A stretch of DNA of 61,147 bases from Candidatus Hodarchaeum mangrovi (GCA_016839515.1 JAEOUE010000207.1:1-61147); one strand, 5' to 3'; shown: positions 4,716-59,632, counted from the first letter of the stretch. Translations and numbers: made by a program. The notes: generated from the sequence alone by a model not told the origin.

Positions 4716-4885
4716 TATGACTCCTCATTGTAAAAATAGGTTATCCTAATGCATATTTTCTTGAAAAATAATTGAGATTATCAAATATATATTTTATCTT
4801 TAGGGCAATAATCTAAATCGCCAGATTGCAGATGAATAAGAAATTATTGAATGTTTATATTATGCTTTTAGAATAAAGGCAAAAT

Positions 4886-5098
4886 TTTTGGGTGTTTATA
4901 ATAATATACCCCAATGTGAAGGAACGGGGAACAATAACTTATGATTCACAAGATCCTTACCTGTTTTAGGGACCTTATAAATCGTCTGCGAGGCAAAGCA
5001 ATGGTGAAGAAAACGATGATGCCTCCAAGAGATAGTCCACCTGGTGCTTGTTAATTAAATTCTTATTGAAAGAATCTTTCTTTCTCCTCTTTTTTTTT
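4886..5098 (+). repeat. Small-gene cassette, copy 1 (TATA box, conserved core, hairpin and T-run)
   Basis: This stretch is repeated in diverged form at 8522-8741. Shared parts in order are GGGTGTTTATAATA (TATA-like box at 4895-4903), a core from about 4968 to 5052 including TGTTTTAGGGACCTTATAAA, then a hairpin (ATTCTT 5059-5064 with AAGAAT 5070-5075) and a run of nine T at 5090-5098 typical of archaeal termination. In both places the unit points towards, and ends just before, the stop codon of a ~505-aa paralogue on the other strand. It looks like an independent short transcript. Confidence 0.65.
4941..5054 (+). CDS. Possible 37-aa peptide in cassette copy 1
   Basis: ATG 4941 lies about 40 nt after the TATA-like box and just after a purine-rich GGAACGGGGAAC stretch. 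The predicted peptide is basic with a CFRDLINRLRGKAMVKK core and a P-rich end. Compared with copy 2, six codons differ only at the third base (AAT/AAC, CTG/CTA, AAG/AAA, ACG/ACA, CCA/CCT, CCA/CCG), the one indel is a whole ATG codon, and both frames end in TAA; this favours coding. Against it, copy 2 has a stop just upstream and no matching start, so a structured RNA is the alternative. Confidence 0.4.
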   Translation: MIHKILTCFRDLINRLRGKAMVKKTMMPPRDSPPGAC

Positions 5099-5117
5099 AT
5101 GCTAAATACCTTTGAAT

Positions 5118-6641
5118 TTATGATCTTAATACCTGTGGCATAATCCATCCTTCATCATCCTTAAACCATTTCCTATTGATCTGTAAGGGAACATTAATAT
5201 TCTGAAGTGGGTGGATAAGCCATTTTGCTTGTGTTCGCATCCATGTTGCCATGGAAGTATTAAGATACGCCCGAATGTGCATTTTTTCGGCTGTGTGGAG
5301 GATTAAGGCTTCAGGAAGAAGATTCAAGACTCCATATAATTGAGAGAAATCCTTGGGTTCTACTTGAGGAAGAGTTATCCAATAAAGATCCACGGAATTT
5401 TCAAAAATTAAAGCTCGAGGAGTAAACAGAGGTGTCAATACTTTAAGTGAAATTAACTCTTCAAGTTTCTGGATTTTTATTTTTGGAATGATTGTGTTGA
5501 TCCTTAATGTCCTTTCAATTGGAATTGAACGTGGTAAATTACAATAAAGATTTATGAAATCCCTAGGGTTGTCAGAATCCAGATAATTCCATTTTTTAGA
5601 GAATAATGGTGAAATAAATACGGGAGGGGGTTTGGTTTCTCTTTTACGGGCTGTTTTTTGTTTAAAATTTTCCATTTTTCTGGCTAAATTTGCAGAATCA
5701 GGAATATCTTCACTCCATCCGTGATTAGGGATATATTGCATCAAGGAATTAGAAAATTGATAATTTGTTATTTTAGTTATTTCATGAATTTTAATTGAGT
5801 TGGTATTTTTGAGTGTTGTTAAATAGCTCTGTAGATTTTTTTCAGCATTTTGGGGTATGAAGAGTTGACCATGGATAATTCTGGGATTATTTTCTACTGA
5901 ATAGATATTACTAAGACATAAAGTTGTATTTGACTCATCTTTAAGGTCAAGAAGATTTTTGAAACTGATATCTTTTAACTGTTCTATATGAAAAATAAAA
6001 GACTCTATCCCAAATGCTTCAGGAAAGAAACGAAATTCTAAATTACTATCAAGCATGGTAAGGATAGGATATATATTCCGTGTTTTAATTGAAGGAATAG
6101 GAAGCTTTATTTTTTTGCTTAAATGATGTCCTGAGAAATCCTCTAATCTCAAAGATGGTAAGATCATATAAATGATATTTAGAAGATTTATCTCTTCGTC
6201 GCTTAATTTAACTGGAAGTTTCAATGATTCTCGTTGTAAATCTTCCCATATCTCCGATTTTAAGGAGGTTTGATTTCGTATTAGATTGAAGAAACCAATA
6301 GGTTTATTCCTTAAATGGAAAATTAAGTAATTATAGAAAGTATCAGAATAATAAGAAGGGAGGGTTAAGTATCGCGATGCTCCTAAAAAATAATCTACTG
6401 TGAACCATAGAAATGAATACTCTAAATAATCATTTGAATCTATATGAAGGTTTATATATCGGTGTATTTCCTTGTGAAGCTCCTTTCTGGACTCTTCTAG
6501 GTCAGTATCAACCTTTTTAAGAATTTCAATAAATTCGTTTAGATAATTTTGCTCATTTTTAGGATATTCTTTGATATAATCTTTGGAATGTTTAAGAACC
6601 AGCTTTAAAAATTTCCGATCGCTAGCATTGGAATACTTCAT
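5118..6641 (-). CDS. Unknown protein, paralogue 1 of a duplicated ~505-aa family
   Basis: 507 residues, soluble by composition, with no signal peptide or membrane segment. It is clearly homologous along its length to the product of 8740-10254: shared landmarks are the start (SxxRKFL...YPKNEQNYLNEFI against RFL...YPKDDQILLNDFI), FLWFTVDYF against FLWFAVGYF near residue 75, and WEDLQRESLKLPVKL against WEELQRKSIKIIIPL near residue 140. No catalytic motif or known fold is recognisable. Short helical repeats in the first half and W/P-rich ends are the only visible features. The gene is followed on the opposite strand by a small-gene cassette, as is its paralogue. Confidence 0.75.
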   Translation of the reverse strand: MKYSNASDRKFLKLVLKHSKDYIKEYPKNEQNYLNEFIEILKKVDTDLEESRKELHKEIHRYINLHIDSNDYLEYSFLWFTVDYFLGASRYLTLPSYYSDTFYNYLIFHLRNKPIGFFNLIRNQTSLKSEIWEDLQRESLKLPVKLSDEEINLLNIIYMILPSLRLEDFSGHHLSKKIKLPIPSIKTRNIYPILTMLDSNLEFRFFPEAFGIESFIFHIEQLKDISFKNLLDLKDESNTTLCLSNIYSVENNPRIIHGQLFIPQNAEKNLQSYLTTLKNTNSIKIHEITKITNYQFSNSLMQYIPNHGWSEDIPDSANLARKMENFKQKTARKRETKPPPVFISPLFSKKWNYLDSDNPRDFINLYCNLPRSIPIERTLRINTIIPKIKIQKLEELISLKVLTPLFTPRALIFENSVDLYWITLPQVEPKDFSQLYGVLNLLPEALILHTAEKMHIRAYLNTSMATWMRTQAKWLIHPLQNINVPLQINRKWFKDDEGWIMPQVLRS

Positions 6642-6984
6642 AGCTACTCAACAATAGATCTAATATGTCTTTTTATTTATAAATTTTTTAAAAAAAAACA
6701 CGAAGTTTGTTTTAGAACAATCTCGAGCTGATTTGAAAGGATTTTGTTTAAACATTTAATTGCTAGATCAACAGTGGATACATGAAAACTTCGACCAATA
6801 GGCTTAACTAGCTACCACTAGTCACATGAGGGCAACTTTATTGGAAATTAAGTGGCCTATCATCAGTTAATATAAGGAATAAGTAATCATTCCCTAATTG
6901 TTGTGAGATGGCACATCTGGTCTTTTTTCTCAGGACAATTACGAATTTAACTATTATTATTGTTTTAATCCGTTTTACTGTCGA
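6642..6984. other. Intergenic region with second copy of a dispersed repeat
   Basis: Positions 6768-6817 match 1520-1572 imperfectly (CAACAGTGGATACATG, TCGACCAATAGGCTTAA, GCTA). It lies about 130 bp upstream of the 505-aa paralogue start and could be a regulatory element or remnant. I see no gene. Confidence 0.4.
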
Positions 6985-7329
6985 CTACCTTGAAAATTTG
7001 GCTTGCATTTGAGTAAATTTCATAGTAGCCATGACATCGCCTGTAATTTTCAGATTTTTAGCAAAGAATTCTTTCTGGCCATCTTTTTCCCCTGATGATA
7101 TTTGTGCCCATAGCTCGGTTGTACATTGGAAGGTAAAGGACGGTTTTTCAGGTACTCCTTCATGAAATTCTGCTGTTCCATCTGGATGAAAGATGACATG
7201 AAAGATTCCATCTTCTCCTTCCAAATCATATGCAGCAATTTTATTCCAGTTTTTTAGAAAATCTTGTACCTCAGGGGTTTGATTGACTAATTCAACTAAT
7301 TGCTTAACAGCTTCTTTTCCTGAACCCAT
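6985..7329 (-). CDS. SCP2 sterol-carrier domain protein
   Basis: A 114-residue single-domain protein of the SCP2 family, which holds fatty acyl chains or other lipids in a hydrophobic tunnel. The pattern runs AVKQLVELVNQTPEVQDFL, a W at residue 28, GEDGIFHVIFHPDGTAEFHEG, FTFQCTTELWAQISSGEKD and a final helix ITGDVMATMKFTQMQAKF; the DVMATMKFTQM ending is typical of the family. The gene lies about 155 bp downstream of, and in the same direction as, a MaoC-type hydratase. In eukaryotic peroxisomal MFE-2 the hydratase and SCP2 are fused in this order, so a joint role in fatty acyl-CoA metabolism is likely. Confidence 0.9.
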   Translation of the reverse strand: MGSGKEAVKQLVELVNQTPEVQDFLKNWNKIAAYDLEGEDGIFHVIFHPDGTAEFHEGVPEKPSFTFQCTTELWAQISSGEKDGQKEFFAKNLKITGDVMATMKFTQMQAKFSR

Positions 7330-7484
7330 ATCTTAGTCTCCTTTTATTATTTAAGTAATTGATTAGGATAAGAATAAACAGAACTGATTAAGTAATTTGA
7401 TTTTATAAATTTCATGGTTTATCTCAGCATTTTAAGAGCCTCTTATTATGAAGGATTGGAAAGGAATAATATTCATTTGATTTT

Positions 7485-8345
7485 TTATTTTACCAGTTCT
7501 ATTACACCAAACTTCAATACAGCTTCTCCATTTTCATTTTTAGTTTCAAATCCAATTATCATATTCGTTTCATTTTCCTCCAAGAGCCATCCTTCTGTAG
7601 TAAGTATGTCCTCCATAAAAACTGGTTTTGAAAACCTTGTTTTTATTCGTTTGACCTTGGTTGGATCACCAGCTGCAAGGTTATCTACAATGGCTTGGGT
7701 AGCGAAGGCTAAAGTGCACAATCCATGAAGGATCTTATCAGGTAATCCTGCAGCCCTAGCAATATCTTTGTCAACATGAATAGGATTTTCATCACCTGAT
7801 GCTTCAGCGTAACGGACTGACTGATCAGGAGTTACTTTCATTGTTTGTCTAACTAGTATTTGTTTTTTTAATGAATCCTCTTTAATTATTGGTTTAGATG
7901 TTTCGATTTTCTTTGTTGCTTTTTTAAAAAATAATCCGGCTCGCATTTCAAAAATGATCTCTTCTTTGGCATAGCCAGTCATTTTTGCCCAGAGAACATC
8001 ACCTGTTTCTTTGACATCGACAGAATCTAATTTAATCTTTGTCTTAATCTTTTCTCTTGGTCTTAATGGTCGAAGGTATAGAATTTCCTGTTCACCATGA
8101 ACCATTCGGAGAATGTCAAGGTTGAGTGTTTCATCTGTAACAATCTGCATCATTGGATCTATTAACATAGTTACTGGGAAAAGGGGTGGGATCCTTAATT
8201 TATTCTCGTCCAATTCATAGTATTGGGGATTTATCTCATTGGTAGCTTTAGCATAGGCTATTGTTTTTCCTGGATCAACAGTTACTATCTTTCCCTCGTA
8301 AATCTTACCAACAATATTAGGATCAAGGCCACTTTCGTTCATCAT
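7485..8345 (-). CDS. MaoC-type double hot-dog enoyl-CoA hydratase 2
   Basis: 286 residues with two hot-dog lobes, as in eukaryotic hydratase 2. The carboxy lobe carries the hydratase-2 signature: YAEASGDENPIHVD (Asp185 and His190, spaced as the catalytic pair of the family) followed by AAGLPDKILHGLCTLAFA. The amino lobe (1-145) lacks it and probably shapes the long acyl pocket. The expected reaction is (R)-specific hydration of trans-2-enoyl-CoA. The closest architectural match is the middle of peroxisomal MFE-2; here the SCP2 part is a separate downstream gene and no dehydrogenase is adjacent. An alternative role is an unrelated MaoC acyl dehydratase. Confidence 0.88.
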   Translation of the reverse strand: MMNESGLDPNIVGKIYEGKIVTVDPGKTIAYAKATNEINPQYYELDENKLRIPPLFPVTMLIDPMMQIVTDETLNLDILRMVHGEQEILYLRPLRPREKIKTKIKLDSVDVKETGDVLWAKMTGYAKEEIIFEMRAGLFFKKATKKIETSKPIIKEDSLKKQILVRQTMKVTPDQSVRYAEASGDENPIHVDKDIARAAGLPDKILHGLCTLAFATQAIVDNLAAGDPTKVKRIKTRFSKPVFMEDILTTEGWLLEENETNMIIGFETKNENGEAVLKFGVIELVK

Positions 8346-8521
8346 GTTTTCACCTAAACTATTTTTGAATAATTAACTGAATTGAGATTAAAAAGTAACT
8401 GGGATTGAATTATCTCTTAAAGATGATCAATGGATATGAGGGGTGTCTTTAGATCTTTTGATTCTAGTTGCTATTTACATTCAACTTTTTCGAATTTTTT
8501 TATTCTCTTTCCTAGATTGAA

Positions 8522-8741
8522 TTCTTGGGTGTTTATAATACCCCTCCTCAATGGGAGAGAAAGGAAACATGGAGTAACTGTAAAAAGACTTCTGTATCTG
8601 TTTTAGGGACCTTATAAACCGTCTACGAAGCAACTTAATGGTGAAAGCAACAATGATGATGCCTCCTACAGATCCCCCGGTTGGTTCAACTTAAAAACAT
8701 CTAAAATTTCCCTCTGGAAATTAAAAATCCCCTCTTTTTTT
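8522..8741 (+). repeat. Small-gene cassette, copy 2
   Basis: Diverged copy of 4886-5098: GGGTGTTTATAATA (TATA-like box at 8532-8540), the core TGTTTTAGGGACCTTATAAA at about 8599-8618, hairpin AATTTCC (8705-8711) with GGAAATT (8716-8722), and a T-run at 8735-8741 abutting the paralogue stop. The frame matching the copy-1 peptide is open from 8584 to 8691 with TAA at 8692-8694, but its only ATG is 8638, giving 18 residues (MVKATMMMPPTDPPVGST). So either the shorter conserved peptide or the RNA itself is the product. Confidence 0.6.
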
Positions 8742-10254
8742 ACTTTAAAAGTGGCGGTTTCCATTTCCTTCCTGTGGGATTGAACCAGTCAAATTGAGGG
8801 GGAACGGGACTATGCTCCGGAAGGACACTGAATATCTCCCATTTCACCCGATAGTCTTGAATCAACTGTTCTACCAAAGCTTTCATTTGGGGATTCAAAA
8901 CTGTTGTAATGATACATGATTGATCAGTTCTTCCAATCTGTGCATAAGGAAGAAGATCTAATAGCCATGTTAGCTGTTGAGTAGACATCAAAGGGAGGAT
9001 TAAAATAAATTCATCAGGAGAATAATCAATACGTAACCGATTTACCATGAACCAGATTGATAATATCTTTTCGTCATATAATGCTTTGAGTATTTCTAGC
9101 TCTTCCTTGTGAATACTAGACTCAAGGGGTAAGGTATCGTACTCATAGGGGCCAAAATATGTACAAAATATTTTTACATAATCTGTAAAAGTTTTTAAAT
9201 GGTCTAGCTGCGCATTTATGTTAAAAATTGTTGATAGAAATGCTGTGGACTGTTTTCGTCTTTTTCGAGGTTTAGAGGTGGACAGACGTTTCATGATAAG
9301 GATTTCTTCGGTCTCTGTTAATGTTTTCCATCCTTTATTTATTTCATATTCACTAAGAGAGGCACTCCAGAAAACTTGCTTTATGGGATTAAATTCTATT
9401 AAATTTATACTGTGTTTATCTAAAAGAAAATCCTTTAGTTCATTTACCTCCTCTTTCGTCGTTATTAAGGTCCCAAAATAATCCTTTGAGTTTGTTCGGG
9501 AACGATATATTCTACTCATTTGAAGAAGGGTATTTTTAGGATCCTTAAAGTTTATTATTTGATTCAGTGACACTCCATTCTCAAGCTTCATTTGAAAATT
9601 TATTCGTTCCAACCCAAATGCAGGTAGATGGTATTGGAGAAGCCAAAGAGAGGTTAATGGTTTAAAAAACCGACGTTGATCTGTTCTTCTGGAATAACCT
9701 TTGATTTGGCTTGCAATTAGCTTTCCTAACCGATTTTGATAGAGTAGATTTATTCCTAAATACTTGCACCCATTATAAACTGCTTTAAGTACCGCTAATT
9801 GATCACTATCTAGTGGAATAATAATTTTAATGGATTTTCGTTGCAATTCTTCCCAAGAACCATCTGTAAGTGGAGTAATCTGTCGGAGTAAGTCAAATCC
9901 TCCCTTTTCATTTCCTGTAGATCGAAGAGAACTAACTAAGTATTGGTAAAATCGTGAGGCATAGAACTTCTCCTCTTCCAATAGCTGACCTGATGTTTCA
10001 AAATATCCAACTGCGAACCAAAGAAAAGGTGTGCTGCGATATAATTCAGTGTAACGATAATTTTTACTAAAATCATTGATCTTCTGAATAAGATTTTCTC
10101 GTTGAAGTTTTGTATCTACTTCATAGAATGAAAGAACTGCAATAAAATCGTTTAATAGAATTTGATCATCTTTTGGATATTTTTGAACAAAATTTGGTAA
10201 CAAATTAAGAATACTATCTAAAAATCGTTTATTACTTCTATCTGGTTCCCTCAT
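8740..10254 (-). CDS. Unknown protein, paralogue 2 of a duplicated ~505-aa family
   Basis: 504 residues, soluble, homologous over its length to the product of 5118-6641 but well diverged (by eye perhaps a quarter identical), so the duplication is not recent. It shares the FLWF motif near residue 80 and WEELQRKS near residue 155, and has its own basic stretch (SKPRKRRKQS) near residue 330 where paralogue 1 has ARKRETKPPP. No known domain is recognised. Conservation of length, of the basic hinge, and of the convergent downstream cassette suggests one function in two versions. ATG 10254 aligns with the paralogue's start. Confidence 0.75.
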   Translation of the reverse strand: MREPDRSNKRFLDSILNLLPNFVQKYPKDDQILLNDFIAVLSFYEVDTKLQRENLIQKINDFSKNYRYTELYRSTPFLWFAVGYFETSGQLLEEEKFYASRFYQYLVSSLRSTGNEKGGFDLLRQITPLTDGSWEELQRKSIKIIIPLDSDQLAVLKAVYNGCKYLGINLLYQNRLGKLIASQIKGYSRRTDQRRFFKPLTSLWLLQYHLPAFGLERINFQMKLENGVSLNQIINFKDPKNTLLQMSRIYRSRTNSKDYFGTLITTKEEVNELKDFLLDKHSINLIEFNPIKQVFWSASLSEYEINKGWKTLTETEEILIMKRLSTSKPRKRRKQSTAFLSTIFNINAQLDHLKTFTDYVKIFCTYFGPYEYDTLPLESSIHKEELEILKALYDEKILSIWFMVNRLRIDYSPDEFILILPLMSTQQLTWLLDLLPYAQIGRTDQSCIITTVLNPQMKALVEQLIQDYRVKWEIFSVLPEHSPVPPQFDWFNPTGRKWKPPLLK

Positions 10255-47275: not shown

Positions 47276-47377
47276 TGGGCCCACCCGGATTTGAACCGGG
47301 GATCTTTACCTTGCCATCTAAAAAAATGGCATCTCGGTTATCAGCCGAGCGCTTTAACCAGGCTAAGCCATGGGCCC
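47276..47377 (-). tRNA. tRNA-Ile(GAT) with an intron in the variable loop
   Basis: Acceptor GGGCCCA/TGGGCCC, anticodon arm CTCGG-CTGATAA-CCGAG (GAT), T arm CCCGG-TTCAAAT-CCGGG, A73. Between the anticodon stem and the T stem are 32 bases instead of five. Removing about 27 nt (47306-47332), which fold as TGCCAT-TTTTTTAG-ATGGCA, leaves AGATC, a normal variable loop. The intron therefore lies outside the usual 37/38 position. Exact cut sites are uncertain by a few bases. Confidence 0.88.
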
Positions 47378-59538: not shown

Positions 59539-59632
59539 TGGACCGACCGGGATTTGAACCCGGGGTATACGGTCACTATGGGGTGAACTCCGCCTTGCGA
59601 AGGTGGCGTGATACCAACTTCACCATCGGCCC
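59539..59632 (-). tRNA. tRNA-Ala(CGC) with an insertion in the variable loop
   Basis: Acceptor GGGCCGA/TCGGTCC with the alanine-specific G3-U70 pair, D arm GTGA-AGTTGGTA-TCAC, anticodon arm CCACC-TTCGCAA-GGCGG (CGC; one A-C mismatch), T arm CCGGG-TTCAAAT-CCCGG, A73. Twenty-six bases separate the anticodon and T stems; about 21 of them (inside 59566-59587, hairpin TCAC-CCCATA-GTGA) are best read as an intron, since alanine tRNAs have a five-base variable loop. Confidence 0.85.

Follow-up and report, generated by a model that had tools for sequence, protein, structure and literature searches.

We analysed a 61,147-nt stretch of DNA from Candidatus Hodarchaeum mangrovi (GCA_016839515.1 JAEOUE010000207.1:1-61147), referred to here as the window, which carries two copies of a cassette made of a gene for a protein of about 505 amino acids and a small unit facing it from the opposite strand. 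The two paralogous open reading frames (ORFs), at 5118–6641 (507 aa) and 8740–10254 (504 aa), both lie on the minus strand and align over their full length with 26–27% identity. The facing units, at 4885–5098 and 8522–8741 on the plus strand, are about 73% identical over 150 nt of aligned DNA and share the blocks TTGGGTGTTTATAATA, CTGTTTTAGGGACCTTATAAAyCGTCTrCGA and AATGGTGAA..ATGATGCCTCC. A 27-base core of the unit matches twice within the window against 0 expected, and a search of the whole 4.0 Mb genome with the unit returned two strong matches only (E 2.7e-90 and 4.8e-15; the next at 0.63). Between the cassettes lie genes for SCP2 (6985–7329) and a MaoC-like hydratase (7485–8345), each present singly. 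These results confirm both the duplicated cassette and the unduplicated DNA between its copies, as proposed in a first-pass annotation made from the sequence.

Both units have the same internal order, with all elements on the plus strand. Unit 1 begins with a distal promoter-like motif, TTTTTGGGTGTTTATAA (4885–4901), recovered by a search allowing at most one mismatch and scoring 22.2 with the position weight matrix (PWM) described below. The proximal promoter motif TTTTAGGGACCTTATAA, a TATA box, follows at 4964–4980, within the core match, at a distance from the ATG (35 nt) that many homologues share. A Shine-Dalgarno-like TGGTGA (5002–5007), which aligns with the GAGGT of homologues, precedes a micro-ORF (5016–5054) encoding MMPPRDSPPGAC, with homologous micro-ORFs at 29 loci, and a terminator-like T-run is found at 5090–5098. 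Unit 2 comprises the distal motif TTCTTGGGTGTTTATAA (8522–8538; PWM and motif search), the proximal motif TTTTAGGGACCTTATAA (8601–8617; core match and PWM), a Shine-Dalgarno-like TGGTGA at 8639–8644, a micro-ORF at 8653–8694 encoding MMMPPTDPPVGST, which also has homologues, and a T-run at 8735–8741 that ends on the stop codon of paralogue 2. Alternative in-frame starts at 5001 and 8638 would give MVKKTMMPPRDSPPGAC and MVKATMMMPPTDPPVGST, respectively. The tiny gene anticipated in each unit is thus an ORF of 12–13 codons, and the anticipated T-run is present. The TATA-like box is present too, although the position first assigned to it (4885 and 8522) is that of the distal of two motif copies, the proximal copy lying inside what had been called the conserved core.

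Micro-ORFs accompany the protein family across the genus

The genome belongs to a Hodarchaeota-type genus of the Heimdallarchaeia, of which we compared 12 genomes. Profile searches found the 505-aa family in all 12, with one to nine copies each. Outside the genus, they gave nothing beyond a marginal partial match in the same class and, across 228 Asgard genomes, a single additional partial match (E 4e-7). The full-family alignment (A3) is highly divergent, and a 12-row subset of close sequences was used to search for relatives in GTDB; its matches were metagenome-assembled genomes of Hodarchaeota or Heimdallarchaeota. Pfam, PADLOC, PHROGs and NCBIfam gave weak single-member matches only, and no viral relatives were found, fold search included. 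In the family tree, two tight, slowly evolving clades stand beside numerous long lineages whose branching is unresolved. A distant relative may exist in another Heimdallarchaeial family: a 598-aa protein (L114 739-2535, G045:C25) with marginal similarity (E 8.6e-5) and helix-turn-helix (HTH)/ferredoxin-like stretches.

Among 44 homologous genes, five lay too close to contig ends, leaving 39 whose 3' side could be assessed. Each was oriented, and the strand facing its 3' end was read for micro-ORFs. A convergent micro-ORF lies 45–206 bp past the stop codon in 29 of the 39, giving 30 ORFs in total, and genomes carry up to eight unit-bearing copies. The supernumerary ORF comes from L073 (G008:C70), where two tandem peptide genes, MMAPNDHGNDGK and MMPPRDGPDSGL, face one partner. 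By blastn, the unit DNA has no match outside the window's genome; a plain DNA search would therefore have missed the unit in relatives, and the impression it gives, that relatives lack the unit, is wrong. The pairing of micro-ORF and 505-aa gene is well supported. The first-pass annotation had proposed a functional pair kept together through divergence, and had named homologues consistently lacking the unit as an observation that would count against it; the 29 unit-bearing loci show the opposite of such a consistent lack and support the pair.

No unit faces the other ten homologues, which comprise the two slow clades (L044/L064/L065/L072 and L045/L067-L070) and the singleton L063. Both clades adjoin a gene for a Ras-family small GTPase, which in L044/L064/L065/L072 lies immediately upstream on the same strand; L045/L067-L070 is also near thioredoxin- and DnaJ-like genes. 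At L060 (G011:C63), the contig end behind the family member resembles large-subunit rRNA and is probably misassembled.

Evidence that the unit encodes a peptide

Across the genus the unit consists of a promoter, TTTTnGGGTGTTTATAA, often repeated upstream, a Shine-Dalgarno sequence, an ORF of 9–16 codons and a T-run. The parts conserved between units are the promoter, the Shine-Dalgarno sequence, ATG(ATG), CCN CCN and the T-run. The encoded peptides (9–16 aa, 48% Pro+Gly) share a constant M(M)PP start followed by a hypervariable tail rich in Pro, Gly, Asp and Asn; examples are MMPPKDGGTGNN, MPPNPPGPNGPT, MSPPPGGPGPKE, MMPPQEPGPGW, MPPDDGPIGL and MMPPGDRGNGK. Shine-Dalgarno sequences precede 27 of the 30 micro-ORFs versus 37 of 125 other genes, with exact GAGGT in 20/30 versus 3/125, and a run of at least six T within 120 nt downstream occurs in 29/30 units versus 26/125 other genes. 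The GC content of the micro-ORFs is 0.54, versus 0.32 in their flanks.

Codon use also points to translation. Three synonymous codons serve each of the two invariant prolines (CCC 24, CCT 5 and CCA 3 at the first; CCA 20, CCT 9 and CCC 3 at the second), and the similar tails GDRGNGGK (L047) and GDRGNGK (L074) are encoded with mostly different codons. The signature GAGGTN{2,14}ATGATGCCNCC has 14 matches in the 12 genomes versus 0 for a reversed control: 12 at partner genes, one near a contig end and one (G003:C314:8176) in the third peptide unit of that contig, which adjoins a relic 52-aa 3' end of a partner gene. ATGATGCCCCC alone gives 24 matches versus 2 in the control; its matches away from the units fall in ordinary genes or yield unrelated ORFs, and were discarded. 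Rfam has no match for the unit as a structured RNA. That the unit is a micro-gene encoding a peptide, and not an antisense RNA, is well supported.

Some units depart from the usual arrangement. At L075 (G001:C88 37166-38633) the partner gene is frameshifted; its peptide, MPPDDGPIGL, is undamaged and matches that of L048 exactly. An orphan micro-ORF, MMPPRTEPSNK (L141 1539; G010:C28, ~47505), has a strong unit-type promoter and precedes a HerA-like ATPase gene; the flanks examined contain no partner gene. At a contig end (L155 1500, G001:C80), the peptide unit MMPPTNPPGGIN adjoins a dehydrogenase gene also found at L071; L058, on a different contig, is probably the partner from which the assembly separated it.

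A promoter motif almost confined to peptide units

The proximal element, TTTTnGGGnnnTTTATAA, mostly lies 33–36 nt before the ATG. Given this position and archaeal TATA spacing, transcription is predicted to start just before the Shine-Dalgarno sequence. At a stricter threshold (PWM score at least 14), 29 sites were found in the 30 peptide upstream regions, 0 in 31 partner upstream regions and 0 in 120 others. The PWM was trained on proximal sites, and the distal copies further upstream (24 forward and 3 reverse; shuffle mean 1.0) are therefore an independent part of the evidence. Over whole loci, 28 of 41 PWM sites precede a micro-ORF. With at most one mismatch, TTTTTGGGTGTTTATAA matches the 4.0 Mb genome only twice, at 4885 and 8522, both in units; genus-wide, it has 9 matches with one mismatch versus 3 in the control. 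The motif is thus almost confined to peptide units. A single unit-type motif was also seen at L139 1500 (G011:C154), before a gene for a small Cys-containing protein that is followed by a pilus/secretion-type ATPase gene.

Predicted fold of the partner protein

AlphaFold2 models of paralogue 1 (pLDDT, predicted local distance difference test, 87.6; pTM, predicted TM-score, 0.87) and paralogue 2 (pLDDT 89.3; pTM 0.87) show a helical domain (about residues 1–145) followed by two modules that we read, from the order of secondary-structure elements, as winged-helix plus ferredoxin-like. On this basis, with Foldseek, both minus-strand genes appear to encode regulator-like proteins. The best PDB match for both is NirDL, with E 4.1e-6 for paralogue 2 (entry 4ch7) and 4e-4 for paralogue 1 (Foldseek probability 1.00 each); Lrp-type proteins such as 2dbb rank lower for paralogue 1. 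NirDL is a siroheme decarboxylase of the AsnC family that holds its ligand in a cavity between two fused ferredoxin-like domains (PMC4835899).

The Lrp/AsnC layout, a winged HTH followed by a beta-alpha-beta-beta-alpha-beta ligand domain, is present at residues ~383–481 at the level of fold only. Winged-helix-like elements are likewise seen by fold, and no HTH family was matched by sequence. The 505-aa loci are not among the matches listed for PF17805 and PF01037 searches of the genome, and hhalign supported neither a sequence-level link to the Lrp proteins of the same genome nor an internal duplication. Tetratricopeptide repeats (TPRs) were found neither by Pfam nor among the listed PDB fold matches; in the models, the C-terminus is made of ferredoxin-like alpha/beta modules.

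Other elements in the window

The window also holds one copy of a repeated element, CACTAnTCgCATGAGGGC(5-35)GGAAATTAAGC..TCCTATCgTtAAT, at 6825–6852, about 180 bp upstream of paralogue 1. One relative has six copies, mostly between cassettes (G003:C314 1016, 4074 and 7803; G003:C139 626; G003:C44 2073 and 5834). The element at 6825 is not specific to cassettes and gave no structure signal when folded as RNA; it is possibly a mobile-element or recombination site. Two tRNA genes, at 47276–47377 and 59539–59632, exceed the usual length, at about 102 and 94 nt, and likely contain introns; the former was detected by Rfam and not by ARAGORN.

A proposed peptide–regulator pair and its alternatives

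We hypothesize that each cassette is a cognate pair, in which a peptide gene is kept beside the gene for the protein that recognises that peptide. The promoter of the micro-gene would give a very short mRNA with a leader of about 15–20 nt, a Shine-Dalgarno sequence near its 5' end and a T-run terminator, and its translation would yield the Pro/Gly-rich peptide of 9–16 aa, constant in its M(M)PP start and variable in its tail. The partner of this peptide, made from the convergent gene, would be the ~505-aa protein, in which a helical domain at the N-terminus precedes two winged-helix/ferredoxin-like (AsnC-fold) modules in tandem. Specificity would lie in the variable tail, which the protein probably holds in its ferredoxin-like barrel or close to it, with the AsnC-like modules as sensor and probable DNA binder. 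The peptide-bound protein would most likely be a transcription regulator, its first target being the promoter repeated before the cognate peptide gene, TTTTnGGG(n3)TTTATAA, in an auto-regulatory circuit of the Rgg/leaderless-peptide kind. We infer that the peptide binds its partner and that the partner binds DNA, with the peptide either leaving the cell or remaining inside. That these are cognate micropeptide–regulator pairs, working like Rgg/leaderless-peptide systems yet unrelated to them, is in our estimate an even call. We put forward only tentatively, as possible but doubtful, the wider idea of peptide-based cell–cell communication or kin recognition in Hodarchaea, independent of the bacterial systems, in which ultra-short leaderless peptides would be read by a novel family of receptors that join AsnC-fold modules in tandem, diversified into several private channels per genome.

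The pairing over time was examined through the tails. Where partners are at least 50% identical, the mean similarity of the variable tails is 0.40 versus 0.14 (permutation p 1e-4). These data establish joint inheritance and rapid tail change, and not yet co-evolution.

Several observations weigh against the proposed peptide–regulator pair. Over all pairs, peptide and partner distances show no global correlation (Spearman rho 0.08, p 0.16) because the tails saturate; the tail–partner signal is limited to close relatives and may reflect plain co-inheritance. The unit is missing from ten homologues. Signal sequences are absent from the peptides, which are hydrophilic, and no exporter recurs among the neighbours of family loci. 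An AsnC domain was not matched by sequence (Pfam, 40 members), and DNA binding is argued from the fold, since there is no sequence match to Lrp/AsnC. The partner promoters themselves lack the motif (none of 31 upstream regions at the stricter threshold).

The micropeptide might instead be an intracellular inhibitor or antidote, or else a toxin, that works through binding to the partner protein, in a toxin–antitoxin or self-recognition module without transcriptional signalling. The tight linkage, the accessory copy number of one to nine per genome and the variable tails would suit such a module, as would the intact peptide beside the frameshifted partner of L075 and the retained peptide at G003:C314, where the partner is lost. 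We nevertheless consider it rather unlikely: peptides persist as orphans or beside broken partners, none of the toxin or defence families was matched by the partner in the four collections searched (Pfam, PADLOC, PHROGs and NCBIfam), and the specificity of the peptide promoter suggests regulated signalling. It is also unlikely that the partners are GTPase-linked signalling factors to which the peptide gene was added in some lineages as a regulatory element. GTPase genes adjoin both unit-less clades (nine loci) and are perhaps the ancestral context, but Asgard genomes are rich in small GTPases, so that adjacency in two orthologous clades may equal only two events, and unit-bearing copies do not share it.

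The constant head and variable tail also resemble the recognition part and core of a precursor that is later modified, as in ribosomally synthesised and post-translationally modified peptides (RiPPs), for which the 505-aa winged-helix protein would be a binding or maturation factor. Winged-helix folds can bind leader peptides, as RiPP recognition elements do, and an enzyme, NirDL, is the closest match by fold; yet no modifying enzyme or transporter recurs as a neighbour, and the usual RiPP precursors are longer than these peptides, which leaves this explanation quite improbable. A regulatory or antisense RNA that acts on the facing mRNA, with an incidental ORF, is in our view a very improbable reading of the unit. 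The convergent position, the separate promoter and, in the window, the T-run ending at the facing stop would fit such an RNA, but the reading frame, the Shine-Dalgarno sequence and synonymous codon use are kept, and the unit shows neither between-genome DNA conservation by blastn nor an Rfam match. Type I toxin–antitoxin and antisense pairs involve an RNA that overlaps the partner mRNA and is complementary to it; what is conserved here is an ORF together with its signals, and the ORF stops 45–206 bp before the partner gene. Of the two possibilities first suggested, a protein with a small regulator or an antisense RNA pair, the former fits and the latter is at odds with the retained promoter, T-run, frame, Shine-Dalgarno sequence and synonymous Pro-Pro codons.

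The cassettes may be of wider interest. Genus-wide genes for variable 9–16-aa peptides, each tied to a divergent regulator-like partner, are a directly testable candidate, in an order, the Hodarchaea, proposed as sister to eukaryotes; our literature search turned up no description of peptide pheromone systems in Asgard archaea. Genes of 9–16 codons form a class invisible to standard annotation and missed by DNA-level comparison, and the promoter motif, Shine-Dalgarno sequence, ATGATGCCNCC and T-run together offer a signature for finding them.

Comparison with known systems

At the level of fold, the closest counterpart is NirDL of the Lrp/AsnC group, the best match of both window models, with which they share two fused ferredoxin-like domains with winged-helix parts. 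They differ from it in the extra helical domain of ~145 aa, in the absence of a Pfam AsnC match and in sequence, with about 10% identity over the match and TM-scores of only 0.27–0.44 over the whole chain.

In genetic layout, the cassettes resemble bacterial peptide–receptor systems. The RRNPP/Alo systems of Paenibacillus reach more than 25 peptide–receptor pairs per genome in some cases, their peptides being made as 30–50-aa pro-peptides with an N-terminal hydrophobic helix and encoded in an operon after a TPR receptor (PMC7425212). The Hodarchaeal cassettes likewise show many pairs per genome (up to eight unit-bearing), variable peptides and divergent receptors; they differ in that the peptides lack a signal sequence, the two genes converge and TPRs are absent. 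Leaderless communication peptides (LCPs) of the streptococcal Rgg/RopB systems, such as SIP, are 8–10 aa long, and Group III SHP genes of streptococci converge on the end of rgg (PMC13361665). As in Rgg/LCP and Group III Rgg/SHP systems, the Hodarchaeal regulator-like gene stands beside a tiny, separately promoted peptide gene. Unlike Rgg, which combines an HTH with a TPR-like domain, the Hodarchaeal partner joins a helical N-terminus to tandem AsnC-like modules and has no sequence match to it; SHPs are hydrophobic and from Firmicutes, whereas the archaeal peptides are rich in Pro, Gly, Asp and Asn. An adjacent short peptide gene specific to its receptor, one of the features of RRNPP/Rgg systems, is found at 29 of 39 loci, and the peptides differ between paralogues. 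Because the TPR domain is absent but the layout matches, we propose that the Hodarchaeal pairs work like an RRNPP/Rgg system without being one.

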